Shown here: piece after piece, positions 6 to 55,033 of the stretch
Position numbering within the stretch: position 1 is the stretch's first letter
Layout: each line of letters starts with the position of its first letter
NCBI GenBank assembly: GCA_003194525.1
Contig: NBIV01000028.1
Span: 124,001 to 188,000, forward strand
Length of the DNA stretch: 64,000 bases
Origin: Gracilariopsis chorda
Lineage: Eukaryota > Rhodophyta > Florideophyceae > Gracilariales > Gracilariaceae
Direction: 5' to 3'
The notes under the pieces: model-generated
What the model saw: the letters and a program-made list of their open reading frames with translations, nothing else
Databases searched by the model: none
What the model was told of the DNA's origin: nothing
Position numbers and translations under genes: made by a program

Positions 6-1838
6 GTGAATGCTGCAGAAGAGCCTATTACCGAGGTCGAACCCATTAATACGCAAAATATCGAGGAAGATGCTCTTGTCACACCATCTCAGATGCAAGT
101 TTTGCAGCCGCAAACAAGTTTATTAAGCGAAAATGCACCTGTCCAATCAACTGTGATTCACGGTCGTGTGTGGGAAACCTGTACGACGTTGAGTCCTCTG
201 AATGGTTGTATGCAAATGCATCAGTGGAAAGTGGGTGGCCCAGCTGGAGATTTTATCTCACCGCGTCATGTTTCTCCAAACATGAGTGCATTAGATTTAT
301 TTCTTTGGATGTTCCCTATGCAGCATTTGCAGTTCATAGTGAACAGAACAAATGTTCGGTTAGAAAGCAAAGACGTTCGGAGGACTTCAGGGGGAGAATT
401 GCTCAAATTCTTTGGAATTCTTATCCTCATGACTCGCATTGAGTTCTCTAACAGACGGGATCTTTGGAGCCTCGAGCCTTTTTCTAAGTTTATTCCTCAG
501 CCAAATATTGGTCTTGCGATGTCACGGAACAGATTTGAAATGCTTAGAAGTTCAATATGCTTCAGCGGAAATGGTGTGACTGAAGAGCAAGGAATCGCGC
601 GTTGGTCCTTCGTAACAGATTTTGTGAAGGCAATCAATGACCATCGTCGGTCTTTTGTCACGCCATCACATGCCTTATGTGTTGACGAAGGAATGTCACG
701 ATGGTACGGATTAGGCGGTAATTTGATTGATGTCGGGCTTCCGCACTATATGGCATTAGACAGAAAGCCGGAAAATGGTCTTGAAATGAAGGCCGTATGT
801 TGTGCACGAAGTGGCATAATGCTGAACATTGAGCTCAATATGGGTGCAAATATTCCGGAACAAGTTTTTGATTCTGATAACGCCCATGGAACGGCAGTCT
901 TACTTCGCTTAGTGCAACCATGGTTTGGATCAGGACGGTTGGTATGTGCGGATTCCTTTTTTGCGTCTGTCAGTACAGCGAAAGCATTACTAGAAAAAGG
1001 TTTAAGGTTTACTGGAGTTGTCAAAAATGCTACTCGTGAATATCCGATGACACATCTCTCCGAAACTACTTTATCAGACAGGGGAGATTTTGTATCTATG
1101 CTATCGAAAGGAAGCATTATCAATAATGATATAATGGCTGTAATGTGGATGGACAGAGAAAGAAGGTATTTCGTATCAACCTCTGGCACGGTTAGTCCTG
1201 GCTGTCCTATAATTCGAGAAAGGTGGAGACGGGAGGGAAATATTTCTAAGAAAGTGGAAATGGAGGTCGCAATTCCCGAAGTGTGTGAAGAGTATTACAA
1301 AAACTGTTCAATGGTCGATCGCCATAACAGATGCAGACAAGATGATCTGAATCTGGAGAAGAAAATTGAAGTGAAAGAGTGGTCATTTCGAGTGAACTGC
1401 TCTCTTTTATCGATTTGTATTGTGGACGCCTGGAAGTTGTACAAAGCCGCAAATGGAACCCGAAACATGAAAAGTCCGCACCACTTCTATTGCCAATTGG
1501 CTGATGAACTAATTGAGAATACATGGGATACCACAGGTCTAATGAGCAGAGATGAGCAACAATGTGAAAATGATCATGAGAAGCCAATGTTTGCAGGCAC
1601 TGGCTTGCATTTAATGCAGACGAATAGAAGGAGAAAAAACAAGGATGGCAAGATTACAAAAGATTTATATCAAGGACGGTGCAGTTTCTGCAAAGGTAAT
1701 ACAAAGTCCAAGTTTTTATGTTCTGGGTGCTATATCAGAAAAGAAAAAGAAGTGTTTTTATGTCACACTGGTACTAATAGAGATTGTTTTATGAAACACA
1801 TTGAAGAGTGTCACGGTATAATGAAGTTCAGAAGCTGA
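6..1838 (+). CDS. piggyBac-type transposase (5' end possibly outside window)
   Basis: Cut-and-paste DNA transposase of the piggyBac (DDE_Tnp_1_7) family. The N-terminal block around residues 93-185 (LDLFLWMF, LLKFFGILILMTRIEF, RNRFEMLRSSICFSG) is typical of the family. The probable catalytic Asp triad is D227 (CVDEGMSRW), D316 (CADSFFAS) and D438 (SMVDRHNR). The tail (about 563-600) has a Cys-rich finger, CSFCKG...CSGC...CH...C...H, like the C-terminal cross-brace finger of piggyBac proteins. About 610 codons are uninterrupted, so the element looks recently active. The frame is still open at base 3 and begins with GTG, so the true start is probably left of the window, and the left terminal repeat cannot be seen. 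What is seen: family motifs and an intact frame. Inferred: catalytic competence. No TTAA-flanked right terminus was identified. Confidence 0.88.
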   Translation: MNAAEEPITEVEPINTQNIEEDALVTPSQMQVLQPQTSLLSENAPVQSTVIHGRVWETCTTLSPLNGCMQMHQWKVGGPAGDFISPRHVSPNMSALDLFLWMFPMQHLQFIVNRTNVRLESKDVRRTSGGELLKFFGILILMTRIEFSNRRDLWSLEPFSKFIPQPNIGLAMSRNRFEMLRSSICFSGNGVTEEQGIARWSFVTDFVKAINDHRRSFVTPSHALCVDEGMSRWYGLGGNLIDVGLPHYMALDRKPENGLEMKAVCCARSGIMLNIELNMGANIPEQVFDSDNAHGTAVLLRLVQPWFGSGRLVCADSFFASVSTAKALLEKGLRFTGVVKNATREYPMTHLSETTLSDRGDFVSMLSKGSIINNDIMAVMWMDRERRYFVSTSGTVSPGCPIIRERWRREGNISKKVEMEVAIPEVCEEYYKNCSMVDRHNRCRQDDLNLEKKIEVKEWSFRVNCSLLSICIVDAWKLYKAANGTRNMKSPHHFYCQLADELIENTWDTTGLMSRDEQQCENDHEKPMFAGTGLHLMQTNRRRKNKDGKITKDLYQGRCSFCKGNTKSKFLCSGCYIRKEKEVFLCHTGTNRDCFMKHIEECHGIMKFRS

Positions 1839-25989: not shown

Positions 25990-27267
25990 ATGTCATCGCC
26001 CACAGCTTCGGCTTCATCCAACATCATGTTGCCGCAGTTCTTTTTCGTCTCGTCCGTGCCATTGCGCGTCACCTCTTTCTCAGCGCGGCTCCCCAGCGCA
26101 TCCGCCAAACGCCGTCATGCCCATCGCACAGCGCGTGCGTCAATGTCCGCCCACAAATCCGACGCCGCTATCAAACTGCCAAGACGTACATTTCTTTCAA
26201 CCACCGCGCTGGCAGCACTGCAACTATCCGCCACGCCCGCCAACGCAGAGCGCGTCCTCACGCCTCCGGCGTGGCGTCAGGTGGACTTGGACAGTTCTGA
26301 AACCATATACGACATGGATTTCTCGCCGGTAGATCCGGCGCACGGCTTTTTGGTCGGGTCGCGCGGCACGGTGGCGGAGACATTTGACCAAGGGCAGACG
26401 TGGGAGCCACGATCTTTTGCCCGACTCGATGCCGATGAAGAGCTTAATTATCGTTTTGAAGTGGTGACGTTCCGCGGTAAGGAGGGCTGGGTCATTGGAA
26501 AGCCATCTCTATTGCTGCATACTACCGATTCGGGTAAATCGTGGGAGCGCGTGCCACTGAGTCCAAAACTGCCCGGGGAGCCCGTGGCAATCACCGCGCT
26601 AGGCCCTCAGAAAGCTGAGATGACGACGAATGCAGGCGCTGTATACGTGACCGAAAACGGCGGGCGGAATTGGAAAGCGCAGGTTCGAGAAACAATTGAT
26701 GCGACTCTAAACCGCACGATTTCGTCGGGAGTGACGGGCGCCTCGTACTTTACAGGGTCGATTATTCAGGTGCTGAGAGATGCGTATGGAGCGTATCTTG
26801 CAATTTCGTCTCGAGGAAATTTCTTCCTCACTTGGAAACCGGGGCAGGAGTTTTGGATTCCGCATGCGCGCGATTCATCGCGGCGAATTCAGTCGATGGG
26901 GTTTGTAAGCAACGACGTGAACGAGGGGGTGTGGATGGCGACTCGTGGAGGCGGTCTGGCGTTTACTGACAAGCAGCCCGACTTGGAGAGCACGGATCTG
27001 CTCAAGTTCAACAAGGTGGATATTCGATCTGGCGGATATGGCATTCTTGACGTGGCTTTCAGACCGGGTACTTCTGAAGCTTGGGCGGCGGTGGGAGGCG
27101 GCACTTTGTACTATTCGCAGGATGGCGGTAGAACGTGGAGACGGGACGATAAGACGGGTAAGGTTGGAACGAATATTTACCGTATTAAGTTCTTTGATAA
27201 GGATAATGGATTTGCGTTGGGCGCTAATGGAGTGGTGCTGCGGTTTGACGCAAGTGGTAGCGTGTGA
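25990..27267 (+). CDS. HCF136: Photosystem II assembly factor HCF136 / Ycf48
   Basis: Lumenal seven-bladed propeller that binds newly made D1 and is required to build the PSII reaction centre. The presequence is bipartite: a Ser/Arg-rich plastid transit peptide (1-60) and a Tat signal (KLPRRTFLSTTALAALQLSATPANA). The mature protein starts near ERVLTPPAWRQVDLDSSETI. BNR-like repeats are clear: GFLVGSRGTVAETFDQGQTW, GWVIGKPSLLLHTTDSGKSW, AVYVTENGGRNWKAQV, GTLYYSQDGGRTWRRDD, NGFALGANGVVLRFDASG. The 425-aa length fits the plant protein including its presequence. Single exon, intact. Confidence 0.96.
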   Translation: MSSPTASASSNIMLPQFFFVSSVPLRVTSFSARLPSASAKRRHAHRTARASMSAHKSDAAIKLPRRTFLSTTALAALQLSATPANAERVLTPPAWRQVDLDSSETIYDMDFSPVDPAHGFLVGSRGTVAETFDQGQTWEPRSFARLDADEELNYRFEVVTFRGKEGWVIGKPSLLLHTTDSGKSWERVPLSPKLPGEPVAITALGPQKAEMTTNAGAVYVTENGGRNWKAQVRETIDATLNRTISSGVTGASYFTGSIIQVLRDAYGAYLAISSRGNFFLTWKPGQEFWIPHARDSSRRIQSMGFVSNDVNEGVWMATRGGGLAFTDKQPDLESTDLLKFNKVDIRSGGYGILDVAFRPGTSEAWAAVGGGTLYYSQDGGRTWRRDDKTGKVGTNIYRIKFFDKDNGFALGANGVVLRFDASGSV

Positions 27268-33948: not shown

Positions 33949-34623
33949 ATGCCACAATCTATGCGTCAGCAGACAGCTCGCCTCGAAAAAAGCAAAGCTA
34001 AACGAGAAAAGAGTCAAAATGCTCGAAAAGAAGCTCTCGAACTTCTCCAGAACCAACAAAAAGTTGCGAGCGTAGCTGCCACATGCAACCTGTCAGCGTC
34101 TATTGTTTATCGCATTCGCAAAGCCTGGAAGACCAGTAACACTTCATTGCTACAGCGACTCCTTAACCCTGTCCTACACCATGCCGGAAGACCTTCTGTT
34201 TTAAACACAGAAGAGCAAAAGATGATTGTCAAGCGAATTGAACATGCAGGTGAGAGAGGTTTTGCATTAGACATAAATCATATCAAGCGATATATGGGAG
34301 AGATAGCAAGCGACGGGCGCAAATCTTACAAGAACAACCTTCCATGTGATGACACAGTACGCACGTTTCGAGCCAGAAATCGGGAAATCACAGTCCGAAA
34401 GTCAGAGAACCACTGCCACAAATACTTCTTAGGAGAAAACATGGACCATGTACGCACTTTAGTAGACCACCTGAAAGACTTAAAAAAAAACATCCAGACA
34501 TGTTCGAAGATCCTAACAGGATATGGAATCTTGACGAGACGGCAGTCAACGCCACCTATGGAAAACGAGTCAGAGTGTTTACAAGCGCTCGGAACAATTC
34601 AGGAGGACGACGCCACAATATAA
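33949..34623 (+). CDS. Pogo-type transposase, N-terminal frame
   Basis: DNA-binding half of the transposase. The N-terminus is basic and helical (ARLEKSKAKREKSQNARKEA). A helix-turn-helix follows: VASVAATCNLSASIVYRIRKAW (residues about 45-66). A second HTH/CENPB-like region includes GRPSVLNTEEQKMIVKRIEHAGERGFALD. The sequence continues to FLGENMDHVRTLVDHLKDL. At an A9 run (34482-34490) the true reading moves to the next frame (KHPDMFEDPNRIWNLDE). After that this frame reads nonsense to its stop at 34623. Confidence 0.8.
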   Translation: MPQSMRQQTARLEKSKAKREKSQNARKEALELLQNQQKVASVAATCNLSASIVYRIRKAWKTSNTSLLQRLLNPVLHHAGRPSVLNTEEQKMIVKRIEHAGERGFALDINHIKRYMGEIASDGRKSYKNNLPCDDTVRTFRARNREITVRKSENHCHKYFLGENMDHVRTLVDHLKDLKKNIQTCSKILTGYGILTRRQSTPPMENESECLQALGTIQEDDATI

Positions 34624-35807
34624 AAGATAACGGTGCGCATGTTACGGCTGTTATTGCAGCTTCTGCATCCGGTCTTTATGCCCCGCCCCTCTTTGTAGCT
34701 GCAGGAAAGAAGGTGATGCCCGGTTGGAAAAAGAATATTGATCATTTAGACGCCCACAAACTCCCTTCGGACCTTCGCTGGATGTGTGACAAGGAATGGC
34801 TTCCAAGGGATACGAAAATTTCTACGACTGCAAAAGGGTCAATGACAATGGACCTTATGCCAGACCTCGTTAAGCACTTCAATACGTTTGTCAGAAAGAC
34901 AGTACTACCAGAGAAGCTCGTTTTGTTGCTGCTTGACGGGCACAGTTCAAGACGAGGGGAGGAATGGATTCTGTACTGCCAAGAGGCCAATATTGTTGTA
35001 GTTCAACTTCCTGCCAACACTTCTCATTTCCTTCAGCCATGCGATTCTTCAATTAACAAGACCTTCAAGGAGAGAACCAGAGAAGTTAGGGACATTTTAG
35101 TACGAACAGGATTATACGGTAACGCAAATATCGCTTTTAAAATCAAGCTTGGAGTGGCCGGATATATGTCGCTTACCAGTCAAATTGCAAAGCAAAGCTT
35201 CATAAACACTGGAATGTGGCCCATGGAATTTCAGTTCTTCGAAACCTTGCGAAGAAGACTCAACAACCAAGTTCGAAGCTCAGCCTCCAACTCAAACGGC
35301 TCGATAGAGTCACTACGAATGACCAAAAGAACGAGTGACAGTGTACTCTTTTCTAGAATTAAGGCCATTGTGCAAAGAGAACCATGTGCTATGCAAGCAC
35401 TTTGCATGAGTGAGCAAACGCTCCAGGAGAATCGCTCAACGCATCGAATCCTGTGGGAAGCTGCACCTCTTCAAGCCCCTGTGCGCGGTGTGCGAAAAAG
35501 CGCTGCCCATTCATGCGGTGCACCAGCGTCTGTACTCACCAACAGAGGTGCAATGAAGGATGTATCGAACATTGAACGCGTACGGATGACCCAAGCCGAT
35601 GGTGTGCGTAAATATAATCGGTCTGTGGCTCATGCAGTGCTTGAAAGCAGCATGGAGTTAAACAAATGGGATGTCAATGCGGATGACGATATCCCAATAA
35701 TGACGGCGTGGAGACAACGCCGGCTGGTGCTGCGCGGGATTGGGAAGGAAAACGAGCCGGCGGCGAGCGCCGCCGGCGCTCTGTTGGATCTTGCGAAAGG
35801 TGGATGA
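34500..35807 (+). CDS. Pogo-type transposase, catalytic DDE frame
   Basis: Catalytic half, DDE_1 superfamily endonuclease. First Asp in IWNLDETAV (about residue 12), second in LLLLDGHSSRR, third in LQPCDSSINKTFKERTRE. These are the spacing and context of pogo/Tigger/Jerky transposases. VTAVIAASASGLYAPPLFVAAGKK lies between them. The C-terminal region after NTGMWPMEFQFFETLRRR is divergent and probably flexible. The frame is intact over 435 codons. It lies one base out of phase with the N-terminal frame, joined at an A9 run, so either an assembly indel or a young inactivating slip separates the two. Confidence 0.85.
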   Translation: MFEDPNRIWNLDETAVNATYGKRVRVFTSARNNSGGRRHNIKDNGAHVTAVIAASASGLYAPPLFVAAGKKVMPGWKKNIDHLDAHKLPSDLRWMCDKEWLPRDTKISTTAKGSMTMDLMPDLVKHFNTFVRKTVLPEKLVLLLLDGHSSRRGEEWILYCQEANIVVVQLPANTSHFLQPCDSSINKTFKERTREVRDILVRTGLYGNANIAFKIKLGVAGYMSLTSQIAKQSFINTGMWPMEFQFFETLRRRLNNQVRSSASNSNGSIESLRMTKRTSDSVLFSRIKAIVQREPCAMQALCMSEQTLQENRSTHRILWEAAPLQAPVRGVRKSAAHSCGAPASVLTNRGAMKDVSNIERVRMTQADGVRKYNRSVAHAVLESSMELNKWDVNADDDIPIMTAWRQRRLVLRGIGKENEPAASAAGALLDLAKGG

Positions 35808-36982: not shown

Positions 36983-39547
36983 CTAAACATGCAAACAAGT
37001 GGGTCCACGTGGGAGGACCCTGTGCCAGAAGGCACTTCCATTCCTAAGAAATTGACTACAAAACGGCAATACATAACCAAGATTATGATCCAGCCATCGC
37101 AACGGCCACATCATTATGTGGGCGAGAACCGGGTCCAAAGAAGATGTATACGTGCTCGTAATTACTGGCTGTCCTTTCCAAAACACTGCCATAGAGCCAC
37201 TTGACGTCTGGGGATTGTACAGACCTTTCATAGATACGTGCCCAATCTCAGTTACAGTGGTCCATTCGCCCGGATATGAGGGATTCATATGTAGTAGAGA
37301 TATCCTATCCCCGACTTTGACGCTCTCTGCAGTGAGAAGGTTTCCATTGACAGGTAAGTAGTGTTTTGCAGAGATTGGCAAGGCCCCTGAGTTGAAATTA
37401 AGAAGCACAAAGCTTGACATCACATCTGGATTGGCATGGGCAAACAGCAACACTCTTGAGTATTCACCTTCCCCATCACGAATATAATCTCCGACTTTCA
37501 AGTCTTGCAATGCCTTAAGAGTCCCGTCTGCAAGCAGGACCTGGGCTAAACTTGGAAAGCAAGCGGAATCATCCAACACCCCTGTAGTAGTTGTCTCCGT
37601 CGAGTTCGTGGATGCAGAAGGAGATACGCTGGCCGATGAATTTGTCAAAGATGGAGATGCGCTGGACGAGGGTGTGGCGCTTGCGCTGGGCGATGGTGCA
37701 GCGTTTGAGTTATCTTCAATTGCTTGGTCATCTTCGGAATCTGCTTCGTCTCCATCGGTCTTTACTGGTTGTTGACTGTCGCTTGTTGTCGGAGACGCCG
37801 TAGGTTGAGGCTTGTCTTCAACCAGATTTTCGTTTTGAGATTCTCCACCTCCCGGTTCTGGAATAGACTGTTCTTCCGAGTTGTTCTTGTCATGGACGGT
37901 TGAGTTCGGGCGTTGTGGATGTGGAGACGATGCATTGTGGGTTGCATTGTGGGTTTCTGCGAGTGGTATTTTTGCGGGATCTGTACCACCTAAGGGGGTA
38001 AACTGCTCACATGTCGGTGCGAGGAGTTCTATGGCCCTTCTGGATGCCGTATACGTGCACACCTCAAGATTGGATGTTGCATTTCGTCTAAATAGATGCA
38101 TGGTAACTGACTTCTTCTTGAATGCTTCTTCTCTCAGGATGGTTTCCCACTGTTGAGTATCATTAATCAGCTCCTTCATAAATATACTATTCGAAAGTTG
38201 GTGAAGGATGTGAAACACTTCCAATAGAACGACCACATCTTCAGTAATATTCATAGATCCACAACTCGACCCCCCCTTGAAGTTCATAACAGCCCGCATG
38301 CCTTCGAGACCAGTCCCTTGTTCAAGCAGTATACGCCGTTTGGTCTCAAAGGTAAGAACTTTCGGTAAGAATGAGCGAATTTCGGGACGTATCTCATCAA
38401 AAAGCTTCTCAACAACTCCATGAAACATGAGGTTTCCCAACTTATTGCTCCTTAACATATGGTCTCGATCAGAAACGATATCCTCAAGTGAGTACACTTG
38501 CTTCTTTGGACATCTCTGTCCTTCCCACAAAATCGGCATGGGCATCGTATCGACTTCTTCCTTCTGCGGAATACCCCCGTCCACTGGTCCTTGGGTTTGA
38601 CGAACTTTCTCCCCATTCATATCGGATGCGGGCAACAACGTTATATTCTTTGGGAAGTGAGCAGAGCATGGGCATAATTGCCTCAGATCGATTTGCGACT
38701 GCAAGAGTTCTTCCACGTTGATCTCTTGAGGATGGTTACCACCATAGTCTGCTCCTTCGGAGGCACTTCCATTTGATGCACTTTCGTATATCCCATTGGA
38801 TATCTTTTTGTAAATCAGTGCGACCATTGCGTCAACATCTTTCTCCTTCAGGTAAATACAAGTTGTATCGTTGATACCAAGGTAAAGATAATACTTCGAG
38901 TGTATGCCGTACTTCTCCGGTTCATAGTGCTGCCCCGGATACGTGACTAAAAACTGATCAAGGAGCATTTTGACTTCCATGAAAGACATGAATGTTTCAG
39001 GGAGAGCCCCTACCTCACCACATGTAACGGTTTCATTTGGTATGACACCGTGGAAAACCGTAGAAGGCAGTTCACCATCAGGCTTCAGATTCGTTGGGTA
39101 GGGATGGATATATGTATGGTTGGTGGCTTCGGGTTCGGAAGAACATTGGTAATCATTCACTTTAAGGTCTGTATCGTACACAAGATCCAAAACACCATTA
39201 ACGACTGGTGTCAAACGGGCAACTTCGAAGAGCGCAGGGCACTCGTCCCCTTCAACACTTGGCAGGATGCTTTTCATGAGCTCTGCGCTATTCAAGTTGC
39301 GGTACTTCCCCGGTAAGAAATCCTCGGCCGGATAGAGACCAGGCTCTTTCTCGTTTGAATGGTATGGGTCGTCGGGTTCAGGCGGGCGTGTTGCAGAGAG
39401 TCGCACACTGGATGTGTTAACGAACGCCTCTCTTTCTCGTTCTGGCAAGCGATATACATTGTTAGTTACCGATTTGCTGTTGATGTGCATGAAAACAGGA
39501 GTCATCAACGCGACTAGCAGCAGCATGGTGAGTAACCGACTAGCCAT
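36983..39547 (-). CDS. Secreted protein with C-terminal Hedgehog-type Hog (Hint) domain
   Basis: The start is the Met at 39547, followed by a signal peptide (MASRLLTMLLLVALMTPVF); the frame is open 47 codons further but that part looks like leader. Residues about 25-560 are an unrecognised extracellular region with many Cys and N-glycosylation sites. A Ser/Thr/Pro-rich linker (about 560-660) leads to the Hog domain starting at Cys663 (CFPSLAQVLLADGTLKALQD, LKVGDYI). The SAKHYL block stands where Hedgehog has TxxH. GLYNPQTSSGSMAVFWKGQP aligns with the Hedgehog GAYAPLTxxGT block. STYTSSLDPVLAHIMMWPLR aligns with SCYAxxxxHxxAHxxxxPxR, but the Hedgehog Cys is Thr. Known family chemistry is thioester formation and autocleavage before the first Cys. 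Whether it cleaves, or attaches a lipid, is inference. Intact, about 854 aa. Confidence 0.88.
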   Translation of the reverse strand: MASRLLTMLLLVALMTPVFMHINSKSVTNNVYRLPEREREAFVNTSSVRLSATRPPEPDDPYHSNEKEPGLYPAEDFLPGKYRNLNSAELMKSILPSVEGDECPALFEVARLTPVVNGVLDLVYDTDLKVNDYQCSSEPEATNHTYIHPYPTNLKPDGELPSTVFHGVIPNETVTCGEVGALPETFMSFMEVKMLLDQFLVTYPGQHYEPEKYGIHSKYYLYLGINDTTCIYLKEKDVDAMVALIYKKISNGIYESASNGSASEGADYGGNHPQEINVEELLQSQIDLRQLCPCSAHFPKNITLLPASDMNGEKVRQTQGPVDGGIPQKEEVDTMPMPILWEGQRCPKKQVYSLEDIVSDRDHMLRSNKLGNLMFHGVVEKLFDEIRPEIRSFLPKVLTFETKRRILLEQGTGLEGMRAVMNFKGGSSCGSMNITEDVVVLLEVFHILHQLSNSIFMKELINDTQQWETILREEAFKKKSVTMHLFRRNATSNLEVCTYTASRRAIELLAPTCEQFTPLGGTDPAKIPLAETHNATHNASSPHPQRPNSTVHDKNNSEEQSIPEPGGGESQNENLVEDKPQPTASPTTSDSQQPVKTDGDEADSEDDQAIEDNSNAAPSPSASATPSSSASPSLTNSSASVSPSASTNSTETTTTGVLDDSACFPSLAQVLLADGTLKALQDLKVGDYIRDGEGEYSRVLLFAHANPDVMSSFVLLNFNSGALPISAKHYLPVNGNLLTAESVKVGDRISLLHMNPSYPGEWTTVTEIGHVSMKGLYNPQTSSGSMAVFWKGQPVITSTYTSSLDPVLAHIMMWPLRWLDHNLGYVLPFCSQFLRNGSAFWHRVLPRGPTCLHV

Positions 39548-41564: not shown

Positions 41565-43292
41565 TCAGAGTGCTTCTTCACCGAAGTGTTCATTGGTTTC
41601 CTGTTCGGCGAGAAAGAGATGTCTTACTTCCTGGTCACCATCGAGGTTCGCTGTTGCTCGCGCAATACCTACTCTTGCTGAGAACCATGCCACGAAAAAG
41701 CGCAGCCTTCCTGAAATGGCCCGAAGAGATCGTCTGCTAAACAATGAACCGCGCACGATTTCTCCATGTATCCGGGCTGGTTTGCGACATCTGGGACAGG
41801 TTGCATTTGTTAACAGCCATTGGTCTAGGCAACTTGAATGGTAGGAGTGCCCACAGGCCAATCTTCTCAGATATTCTCCTTCCTCAAAGGTACATAGACA
41901 TACTGAGCAGCACACGTCACCAGTAGCGCCGAGTGCGGCAGTCTCACTCTTCGTGAACACGAAAGCTGGGAACATCGCATTCACTTCAGCTTCGGAAAGC
42001 CTATCCCGTCGAGACGAAGTGTCTTCGGGTTGGCGACGTGCAACATCGAAAAACTGTTGCCGAAATACGCTAGCCCAGATTGAAACGCAAACAACCATTG
42101 TCAATAATATCAGCATGCTTAATAACATGGGCAGCAGTAAGAGGTTGAGACCGAATTCCCAGTGCTGTTGGCTACTTGATGGTGGACATAACCTCTGTCC
42201 TTCCCTTGGATATCTCTTGACGCATGGGAACGCAGTGACCACCACTTGAACACTCGCATGTGCAGACACGAACGCAATATTTGAAAGGTGAGAATGGCCA
42301 CGGGTAAGCCACACCGTTCTGTGCATGTTATATACGCCGACGTACAGAACCTCGCCCTTCTTCAGACCCGTTCGTACAACTCTTTGCACCGTACTTCTTG
42401 CCATTACAGCGTTGCGATCTGCAAACACCCAGTCGTAGATAGAAGGTAGAGGGGTCCCTCTCTCTAGCTGGCTTCCTTGCTCACCAAGACGCTTCGCAAA
42501 TAGAATGGGCTGCGCACCGATAAGATTACTCGAGCTTGAAACTTGCATCTCGACCGCAACGCTTCCGTTTTGGGGCACGACATAACTAAAGAACAGCATT
42601 TTCTCACTTGGTACATCAAAAGGTTTATCCGATAAAGGTTTGACGGTATGTTGGCAATAACGGCCTCCATATCCATGTTGACAAACACATTGATTCGCAA
42701 TGCACGCACCTCGCCCTGCACATTTTGAACGCCCCGGACCATAAGGACACACATTCTCTGGTACCTTGTGTATCGATATGCGGATGGTAGCGTTCAACTC
42801 GTTCTGAACAGTTGAATTATGATTGAGAAGACGCAAGAAGAGAATTTTCGTAAAGCTTGGAATGACGAGGAAATGATAGTTCCGTCTAGTCCAAAACGCT
42901 TCGAAGTCCCCGAGCACTGCTTTTCGTCTATACGGATGCGATGGTGGGGGTGTTTTGACAAACGATGCCAACAATAACGGGTCAGGCTGGAGTTCAAAGT
43001 ACTTTGAAGGCTCGAACCAGGCTTCAACGAGCAAGGCAATGTTTTGGCTACTGTTTGGCGGTTGCACGGCGAAGGTTAGCGAGTGGCCTGGTTCTACAGT
43101 GGCATTGACAGACTTGGGCGATGTAGATGGTACAAACGTTCCGAGCTCGATGGGCGGGGTGGAGCGATAAGGGAAAGGGCTATGCGCCAGAGTGGGAGGG
43201 CTGGCCAGGAAGAGCATCAAGAAAAGAGGCAATCTCCTGGTGACTTCGCGACAAAACGACCGGCGTGACGCGGGCGCGGGAGCAGTCGACAT
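41565..43292 (-). CDS. RING-H2 E3 ligase, type I membrane protein with EGF-like domain
   Basis: A signal peptide (about 18-36: TRRLPLFLMLFLASPPTLAHS) is followed by a long lumenal/extracellular region with N-glycosylation sites. This contains an EGF-like module (182-213: CPYGPGRSKCAGRGACIANQ, CVCQHGYGGRYC). One membrane span lies at about 380-405. The cytosolic RING-H2 finger (462-502) is CSVC...LACGHSYHSSCLDQW...CPRC, with all eight ligands present. A basic tail follows. The layout recalls PA-TM-RING or GOLIATH-type ligases, but the ectodomain is EGF-bearing instead of a clear PA domain. Its likely role is ubiquitination of membrane or secretory cargo; the substrate is unknown. Single exon, intact. 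Confidence 0.87.
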   Translation of the reverse strand: MSTAPAPASRRSFCREVTRRLPLFLMLFLASPPTLAHSPFPYRSTPPIELGTFVPSTSPKSVNATVEPGHSLTFAVQPPNSSQNIALLVEAWFEPSKYFELQPDPLLLASFVKTPPPSHPYRRKAVLGDFEAFWTRRNYHFLVIPSFTKILFLRLLNHNSTVQNELNATIRISIHKVPENVCPYGPGRSKCAGRGACIANQCVCQHGYGGRYCQHTVKPLSDKPFDVPSEKMLFFSYVVPQNGSVAVEMQVSSSSNLIGAQPILFAKRLGEQGSQLERGTPLPSIYDWVFADRNAVMARSTVQRVVRTGLKKGEVLYVGVYNMHRTVWLTRGHSHLSNIAFVSAHASVQVVVTAFPCVKRYPREGQRLCPPSSSQQHWEFGLNLLLLPMLLSMLILLTMVVCVSIWASVFRQQFFDVARRQPEDTSSRRDRLSEAEVNAMFPAFVFTKSETAALGATGDVCCSVCLCTFEEGEYLRRLACGHSYHSSCLDQWLLTNATCPRCRKPARIHGEIVRGSLFSRRSLRAISGRLRFFVAWFSARVGIARATANLDGDQEVRHLFLAEQETNEHFGEEAL

Positions 43293-53515: not shown

Positions 53516-55033
53516 TCACTCTTTCCTTCCTGAAGGCTCTTCTGGAGGAATGGAAAGGATGTTAGAGGCCGTAAGTCTCTTGTACCACTCTACAGCAGGT
53601 TTGGGGATTCGCTCTAGTGTGTTGTAGTCGACATAGAATAACCCGAAACGCTTCTCATAGCCAAATTTCCATTCAAAGTTATCCATGAGCGACCACAAGA
53701 AATACCCGCGAATATCTGCGGCATCCTCTTTTGCATTCAGTGCTTCATGCATCGCACGAATATACCTATCATAGTATTCGATGCGTAGCCTGTCTTTTCT
53801 CATCTCTTCTATCGTTGATTCTTTGGAAGCAAGTCCATTCTCAGTTACAATTATTCCCCCGGGTGGTGCGTATCGTTTCTGGATGTACAGCAGCAACTTC
53901 TGGAAACCAGACGGAACAACAGACCAACCCATATCAGTTTTCTTCCATTCAGAATCCCAGGCCTGTTTCGTGCCCCTGTGTTTGTAAAATGATGGTCCGT
54001 TGGCCCTTTCCTCTTGACTCATCAAGCCAGCCCCGTAGTGCGTTGAGTAGTGATTCAGACCAAGGAATTCAGAGCTGCCCTTCAACAAAGTCTTCTCAGC
54101 AGTGGAAAAAGCCGGCAACAGTTCTCCAACCGAATCTCGCATAGAATCCGGGTAATCGCCGAAGTATATGGGATCGGCGAACCACCCCAACTCGAAATCC
54201 ATATCTCTTTGCGCACTCTCTATGCATTGTGGATCAGTCGGGTCCTTTGGTTCTGCCCAGTCCGTGTTGAGTGTTATTCCAATAGTTCCATGCTGAGAGC
54301 TCTTAAATTCCTCGCGGTATACTTGTACAGCCTTTGCATGTGCCAGAAGCAGATTGTGGCCTGCTTTATATACATCGACGCCTGGTTTTGGTTTTTTCCC
54401 GAACTTTGGAGACAGACCGGGCGCGTGCTCCCCAGTTTCATGCCCCAGTAGGGCGCTACACCATGGCTCGTTCAACGTAATCCATCGGGTTACCCTGTCT
54501 CCAAACGCTTCAAAGCATATACGAGCGTAGTCGGCGAACAGATCAGCTATTTCTTGGTCACCTGACCAACCACCGGTTCTCACTTGGACTGGAATGGGTA
54601 GGTCCCAGTGGTACAGAGTTGGAACAGGCGTAATTCCATTGGAAATGAGTTCGTTAATGAGTCTGTTGTAGAACAGAATTCCTTGGGTGTTCTGACAAGG
54701 GCGATTGCTATCGTCCCACTTCTGAATACGAGGCCAAGCTATAGAAAAGCGGTAGTATTTGGTGCCGAGCGACTTGATGAGTTGTACGTCCTGCTGAAAG
54801 CGATGATAGTGATCACACGCAGTTTCTCCCGTATCACCATTTGCAATATTTCCTGGCACTTCACAAAAAGCATCCCAGATGCATGGTGTTCTGTCAGTCT
54901 TTCCAGCACCCTCTATTTGGAACGAGGCAGTGGATGTCCCCCACATAAAACTGTCGGGGAACTTCATGGTGCTCTCCGCCATGACAGCTACCGTGTCTTG
55001 AGAGAAAGGATCAAAAATACTGAACAAGAACAA
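53516..55033 (-). CDS. Glycoside hydrolase family 1 beta-glucosidase
   Basis: Retaining beta-glycosidase with a TIM-barrel fold. N-terminal GH1 signature: FPDSFMWGTSTASFQIEGA. Acid/base Glu in RWITLNEPWCSALLG, nucleophile Glu in GGIIVTENGLAS. Other family blocks: ACDHYHRFQQDVQLIKSLG, YYRFSIAWPRI, FLGLNHYSTHYG, DIRGYFLWSLMDNFEWKFGY, RFGLFYVDY. About 490-505 aa, the family norm. The start may be the first Met or MAESTMKFPDS (54982); the extra N-terminal stretch is weakly hydrophobic and not a clean signal peptide, so cytosolic action is likely. Substrate could be cello-oligosaccharides, floridoside-type galactosides or glucosides; not decidable here. Intact, single exon. Confidence 0.95.
   Translation of the reverse strand: MFLFSIFDPFSQDTVAVMAESTMKFPDSFMWGTSTASFQIEGAGKTDRTPCIWDAFCEVPGNIANGDTGETACDHYHRFQQDVQLIKSLGTKYYRFSIAWPRIQKWDDSNRPCQNTQGILFYNRLINELISNGITPVPTLYHWDLPIPVQVRTGGWSGDQEIADLFADYARICFEAFGDRVTRWITLNEPWCSALLGHETGEHAPGLSPKFGKKPKPGVDVYKAGHNLLLAHAKAVQVYREEFKSSQHGTIGITLNTDWAEPKDPTDPQCIESAQRDMDFELGWFADPIYFGDYPDSMRDSVGELLPAFSTAEKTLLKGSSEFLGLNHYSTHYGAGLMSQEERANGPSFYKHRGTKQAWDSEWKKTDMGWSVVPSGFQKLLLYIQKRYAPPGGIIVTENGLASKESTIEEMRKDRLRIEYYDRYIRAMHEALNAKEDAADIRGYFLWSLMDNFEWKFGYEKRFGLFYVDYNTLERIPKPAVEWYKRLTASNILSIPPEEPSGRKE

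Follow-up and report, generated by a model that had tools for sequence, protein, structure and literature searches.

Introduction

The covalent linkage of cholesterol to a protein has been described as singular to Hedgehog (PMC7242414). The closest described relatives of the protein considered here are the red-algal Hog proteins reported in 2008 (PMC2362128), which have a Hog domain with motifs J and K, a SCYA motif whose Cys is replaced by Ser, Thr or Asp, and upstream regions without known relatives. Because that report includes the replaced SCYA Cys, the Hog kind of domain was already known in red algae. The Hedgehog-related proteins of nematodes (warthog, groundhog and quahog) likewise join lineage-specific secreted N-termini to a Hog domain and form an expanded family. 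Here we describe a gene of Gracilariopsis chorda, located in a stretch of 64,000 nucleotides of contig NBIV01000028.1 (positions 124,001 to 188,000; hereafter, the window), which encodes a protein of 854 amino acids (aa) with a C-terminal Hog domain and shares the three features listed above. Whereas the 2008 set consists of few open reading frames (ORFs) per species, with six ORF fragments from Gracilaria changii, the G. chorda gene is complete, stands amid 38 near-complete Hog domains and shares a four-Cys domain with part of that family.

New here are the 38 near-complete Hog domains in a single genome, the consistent presence of His at the position of the catalytic base, the retention of HPR with loss of HWY, the match of one half of the ectodomain to a four-Cys domain of paralogues, and the presence of a Dispatched-like transporter gene. 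Judging by the residues kept, the 854-aa protein may be a secreted precursor that cleaves itself before Cys663 and has a sterol joined to its ectodomain, a reading to which we give a probability of roughly 0.55. Cys663 would attack the carbonyl of Ala662 in an N-S acyl shift aided by Ser726 and His729, and a sterol would be held by the C-terminal region that contains the HPR motif. His704, standing in for Asp, would activate this sterol, which would displace the thioester, and the glycosylated ectodomain (residues ~25-662) would thereby be freed as a C-terminal sterol ester. The ester would tether the ectodomain to the membrane or wall, from which a Dispatched-like transporter might release it, and the released ectodomain may have a role in the wall, in adhesion or in signalling. 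These parts differ in strength: self-cleavage before Cys663 is very probable from the catalytic residues, a sterol is the slightly favoured nucleophile, and release by Dispatched, drawn by analogy, is tentative.

A Hog domain at the C-terminus

The gene lies on the minus strand, from the ATG at 39547 to the stop codon at 36985-36983, with zero internal stops. The features of the gene and of its Hog part, which spans 192 residues from Cys663 to the C-terminus, are as follows.

36983..39547 (stop included), minus strand: whole gene, a single ORF for the 854-aa secreted Hog protein (ORF, and the homologue P0003 of the same architecture)
37142..37561, minus strand: Hint domain, residues 663-802 (Pfam PF01079 and alignment to 6TYY)
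37559..37561, minus strand: Cys663, nucleophile predicted for the N-S acyl shift (Cys conserved in copies and relatives)
37436..37438, minus strand: His704, at the position of the Hedgehog general base Asp303 (D46) (alignment to 6TYY)
37361..37372, minus strand: Ser726-Ala-Lys-His729, the TxxH motif (family alignment counts)
37151..37153, minus strand: Thr799, at the position of Hedgehog Cys400 (SCYA) (family alignment counts)
36986..37141, minus strand: adduct recognition region (ARR), residues 803-854, with motif K and LPRG near the C-terminus (alignments)
37097..37120, minus strand: H810-x4-P815-x-R817 (spacing equal to that of H374/P379/R381 in the first helix of the sterol recognition region of human SHH)

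A first-pass annotation of the window, which had also noted that Hog proteins are known from red algae, proposed a Hint start at Cys663, the run GLYNPQTSSGS, YTSS (within STYTSS), LAH and WPLR, a Thr for the SCYA Cys and SAKH for TxxH; all of these are present in the translation, the latter two as Thr799 and S726-A-K-H729, and its coordinates are likewise correct. The profile search that it had suggested gave 59.6 bits for Pfam Hint (PF01079) on the 854-aa protein, against a cut-off of 29.7 (E 4.2e-16). Four PDB sequences matched at E<=1: three Hedgehog entries lead (2.2e-6 for 6TYY, to 3.9e-5), followed by an intein endonuclease (E 0.58). The Pfam Hint match, the 6TYY match and the homologue of the same architecture together place Hog membership beyond chance. 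Motifs J and K and the C-terminal ARR are present as GLYNPQT...STYT and LAHxxxxPLR (motif names assigned by us), and Pfam, followed up to E 1, reported no Hedge signalling domain in the 854-aa protein.

The predicted model of the paralogue P0006 contains the Hint horseshoe fold, and a fold search with this model placed Hedgehog on top, with intein structures filling the ranks beneath. An intein, or a bacterial intein-like element, has the Hint fold in common with a Hog domain and appears in that list below Hedgehog; nevertheless, such an origin is very improbable given the Pfam Hint match, the Hedgehog matches in the PDB, the HPR motif and the order of the fold search. The assignment of the C-terminal part to the Hog kind of domain, rather than to a generic intein, is thus supported, as the first-pass annotation had held.

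Conservation of the catalytic residues in the Hog family

The genome (91.3 Mb in 1081 contigs) contains 41 places that match Pfam Hint, which correspond to 38 near-complete Hog domains, including that of the 854-aa protein, and three fragments. Three of the 38 (L021, L022 and L030) have short ORFs, for which upstream exons are possible. We aligned the 40 other Hint neighbourhoods with the gene of the 854-aa protein, and added a database set of 73 proteins (P0003-P0075), one of which, P0006, is the paralogue L024 itself (100% match; database name Warthog protein 6). It should be noted that the database relatives were chosen by similarity to algal profiles among the matches listed, so that their counts are no survey.

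The Asp general base of Hedgehog proper (D303) is not kept in the 854-aa protein, which has His704 instead. This residue and the H810-P815-R817 motif are features beyond those in the first-pass annotation. Among the own copies that cover the respective positions, the first Hint position is Cys in 40/40, the Asp303 position is His in 39/39, and the TxxH motif keeps its Ser/Thr in 39/39 and its His in 38/39, the exception being the fragment L047. The corresponding numbers for the database relatives are 72/72 (Cys), 73/73 (His46), 72/72 (TxxH Ser/Thr) and 72/72 (TxxH His). The SCYA Cys position is variable in the own copies (n=39: T 27, S 5, C 5, A 2) and mostly Thr in the database set (n=71: T 69, C 1, E 1). 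The residue preceding the Hint Cys also varies (n=38: A 12, V 10, S 6, T 3, K 2, and L, I, E, G and M one each).

These counts bear on the view that the Hog domain is inactive, being a remnant that still folds, or a module for binding, in an uncut protein. The loss of the SCYA Cys to Thr and a -1 residue other than Gly would fit this view. However, the nucleophilic Cys, S/T-x-x-H and His46 are all kept in 38/38 diverged near-complete own copies, as well as in the relatives covering these positions; this argues for selection on catalysis and makes an inactive domain improbable.

By eye, 10 of the 38 copies (the L009-L045 set) have at least four Asp in a row among the eight residues that precede the Hint Cys (DDDDDDDVCFP-like), a run that sits at the predicted cleavage site.

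The predicted sterol transfer

Two lines of work on animal Hedgehog help to read these residues. With the engineered change D303H (D46H), Drosophila Hedgehog stays active and accepts a wider range of sterols (PMC9163320). It should be noted that the Hedgehog of 6TYY is this engineered mutant, while the same His is natural in the alga. In human SHH (hSHH), the first helix of the sterol recognition region (SRR) carries H374, P379 and R381. In cells, processing is strongly reduced when H374, F377 or R381 is changed to Ala, whereas P379A yields less protein with the processed share unchanged; simulations place H374 close to the sterol hydroxyl, and an Ala change at each residue of the HWY motif reduces processing (PMC7242414, PMC7906309). 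The HPR motif is kept in the 854-aa protein as H810, P815 and R817 with the hSHH spacing, and the full triad is present in 26/39 own copies and 62/71 database proteins. The main sterols of Gracilariopsis persica are cholesterol and 22-dehydrocholesterol (PMC3813141).

The catalytic Cys, S/T-x-x-H, the His at the general base and the HPR motif together suggest a Hedgehog-like sterol transfer. Several findings weigh against it. The full HPR motif is missing from 13/39 own copies; the HWY motif of the second SRR helix was not found in the 37 residues past R817; Met813 occupies the position of F377, which is needed in hSHH; residue -1 is Ala662, where Hedgehog has Gly, and is Gly in 1/38 own copies; and the SCYA Cys is Thr799, though mutations of Cys400 in Hedgehog inhibit both steps (PMC4695875). 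Moreover, an AF2 model of the full 854-aa protein, built with four sequences, had a confidence (pLDDT) of 32 and was not used.

The lack of HWY, the Met at the F377 position and the short C-terminal region would also fit a Hog domain that cleaves itself with water or a non-sterol molecule as nucleophile, leaving the ectodomain unlipidated or with another adduct; the adducts of nematode Hog proteins are equally unproven (PMC2362128). This alternative is rather unlikely, since it leaves the exact spacing of the HPR triad unexplained, and hydrolysis has no obvious need for a His at the general base in every copy examined. With sterol transfer preferred, the remark of the first-pass annotation that the chemistry of these proteins is largely uncharacterised holds in that HWY is missing and the transfer is a prediction, and gives way in that the residues point to a Hedgehog-like reaction. 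Its suggestion that the protein processes itself is plausible.

Taken together, the G. chorda protein has in common with metazoan Hedgehog (Drosophila Hh, human SHH) the Hint module, the nucleophilic Cys, S/T-x-x-H, HPR and a signal-peptide-like start on its N-terminal part; unlike metazoan Hedgehog, it has no detected Hedge domain, His for Asp, Thr for the SCYA Cys, Ala for Gly at -1, and no HWY. The open-licence literature, with most subscription journals outside it, gave nothing on red-algal Hog chemistry, on a natural His at this position, or on an algal Hog and Dispatched pair. The word 'histidine' is absent from the main text of PMC2362128, whose alignment figures may show the residue.

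A Dispatched-like gene

In animals, Dispatched exports sterol-linked Hedgehog. The G. chorda genome has two loci with a sterol-sensing/Patched domain, L050 and L051. The gene in L050 (2339-5341; G000:C24:80338-83340) encodes a Dispatched-like RND protein of 1001 residues with a sterol-sensing domain, which is matched at 100% by the database protein P0076, named 'Protein dispatched-like'. When compared by sequence with solved structures, it matched DISP1 at 4.8e-47, NPC1 at 3.8e-17 and PTCH1 at 5.2e-14, and both the GADD of its first repeat and the Asp of its second repeat align with DISP1. By these PDB sequences, the L050 protein lies nearer to Dispatched than to either Patched or NPC1, with DISP1 as its closest solved structure. 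At E<=1e-60 it has at least 62 related proteins, among them ones from Chondrus crispus, Agarophyton chilense, Pyropia vietnamensis and Timspurckia oligopyrenoides.

By analogy with animals, we infer that the Dispatched-like protein is linked to the Hog proteins. Two points tell against this link: Dispatched-like proteins may carry other cargo, and the top NCBIfam model for the L050 protein is Patched, at 64 bits against a cut-off of 1120; in that search no model passed its cut-off, and no Dispatched model was reported.

The second gene, in L051 (1871-4854; G000:C139), is of the sterol-sensing/Patched type and is read in two overlapping frames of 508 and 528 aa, which suggests an intron or an assembly shift; the nearest solved structures to its first part are Patched (3e-8) and NPC1 (2e-6).

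Viewed as a whole, the data might reflect Hedgehog-style secretion without Hedgehog, in which dozens of His-type Hog proteins would join algal sterols to varied secreted proteins, to be released by a Dispatched orthologue; we regard this broader picture as doubtful. Its cargo would comprise proteases, fasciclin adhesion domains and Cys-rich proteins such as the 854-aa protein, and, if it is true, the module of Hog and Dispatched would predate animal Hedgehog signalling and be independent of it. The 38 Hog domains, all with the catalytic residues but with His for Asp, offer a direct way to ask whether eukaryotes link sterols to proteins more widely, and have done so for longer, than Hedgehog alone would suggest, and with the Dispatched-like gene the idea of an ancestral export partner can be put to the test. 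In addition, His-type Hog domains could serve as ready-made tools with a broad sterol range.

Ectodomains of the 854-aa protein and its paralogues

The part of the protein that precedes the Hog domain can be divided as follows.

39476..39547, minus strand: signal-peptide-like N-terminus, residues 1-24 (hydrophobic run in the translation, by eye)
38786..39316, minus strand: ectodomain half 1, residues 78-254, with C103, C135, C176 and C230 (hhalign against the four-Cys domain)
37991..38716, minus strand: ectodomain half 2, residues 278-519, containing Cys (kept across the four homologues in the alignment)
37562..37990, minus strand: linker, residues 520-662 (composition)

The first-pass annotation had noted a signal peptide, many Cys and glycosylation sites. 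Counting gave 13 Cys in the 854-aa chain, 10 of them in the ectodomain, and 16 NxS/T N-glycosylation sequons along the chain; the start, MASRLLTMLLLVALMTPVFM, was called signal-peptide-like by eye, without a predictor. The linker consists of 143 residues, of which Ser, Thr and Pro make up 41%. Three relatives of the ectodomain were found among the 7995 candidates listed and scored: P0003 (880 aa, same architecture as the 854-aa protein; 73% identical), and proteins of Gracilaria domingensis (38%) and Agarophyton chilense (33%). In the own genome, a search with the ectodomain at E<=1 returned the self-match (seven candidates scored).

Pfam matched no known family in the ectodomain, in line with the first-pass annotation; however, residues 78-254 match a domain of its paralogues. 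This domain comprises ~150 residues with four invariant Cys (signature CP, DGxxC, RxCG, CxY) and is common to 16/38 Hog proteins, picked by eye. A Pfam scan of 14 of these 16 carriers (all but L027 and L037) gave no match to it. A profile of the 16 sequences matches 31/73 database proteins (weakest 3.8e-8) and found no further own copy at E<=10. In hhalign, residues 78-254 scored 45.7 against this profile (E 4.7e-7, 140 columns), compared with at most 16.1 in 200 column shuffles and 11.3 for the reversed profile, and 44.2 against a 42-sequence profile. The hhalign probability was 92.6 with half 1 excised, and 4.7 with the whole ectodomain as template (score 45.5, E 6.7e-6). Run as single sequences, the half-1 regions of the four homologues reached 29.0, 17.4, 25.0 and 32.9, and 18/21 other paralogue ectodomains scored at most 16.7 (L021, L022 and L030 outside). 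An ordinary hidden Markov model search with single sequences (E<=10) did not find the four-Cys domain in the 854-aa protein. From these profile comparisons we conclude that half 1 is a divergent copy of the four-Cys domain of the paralogues, the relation being distant.

In half 2 (residues 278-519) the Cys stand, by eye, in an order similar to that of half 1 (CP ... WEGQRC ... SCG ... CTY). Against the four-Cys profile it scored 17.2 over 8 columns, within the range of the shuffles (up to 19.7). Enlarging the profile, adding half 1, testing by halves and aligning in global mode brought no improvement, and a second tandem copy is not claimed. In a full-length alignment of 28 proteins, half 1 and half 2 each contributed two Cys to the single domain of the others, which we judged to be a global-alignment artefact.

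Other ectodomains in the family are of different kinds. A Pfam scan of 27/38 Hog proteins found fasciclin in three, pentapeptide repeats in two, and trypsin and Temptin_C in one each. Pfam reported none of the nematode N-terminal families in the 854-aa protein and 16 paralogues, no direct comparison being made. In a tree of the Hog domains (42 rows; fragments L046, L047 and L048 left out), 19/39 inner branches are open. All three fasciclin genes fall together (98/88), and the four-Cys genes require 5 changes, at least 2 of which are forced. In G. chorda, the Hog module may act as a general C-terminal lipid tag on varied ectodomains, and the presence of ~38 such genes in one genome suggests that such a tag may be in wide use among seaweeds. 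The nearest paralogue of the 854-aa protein in the tree is L033 (95/95), whose ectodomain has its Cys in a similar order; a profile comparison of the two ectodomains gave no match.

Two further pairs, L038/L045 with pentapeptide repeats and L018/L043 with a Cys-rich FFPCH sequence (by eye), have Hog domains that lie apart in the tree, with long branches around both pairs; independent swaps of ectodomains within the family may have taken place.

Neighbouring genes

The window also contains genes of other kinds. Upstream of the Hog gene lies a RING-H2 protein gene (41568-43292, minus strand; E 2e-11), which also shows an EGF-like stretch, weak and below threshold. Farther away are a glycosyl hydrolase family 1 gene (53519-55033, minus strand; E 7e-151) and a YCF48-type photosystem II assembly gene (25990-27264, plus strand). 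Two ORFs on the plus strand are transposase-like: one at the start of the window (6-1835; DDE_Tnp_1_7, E 2.5e-50), which we take to be piggyBac-like, and one that ends just over 1 kb from the stop of the Hog gene (34353-35804; DDE_1, E 8e-16), which is presumably pogo-like.
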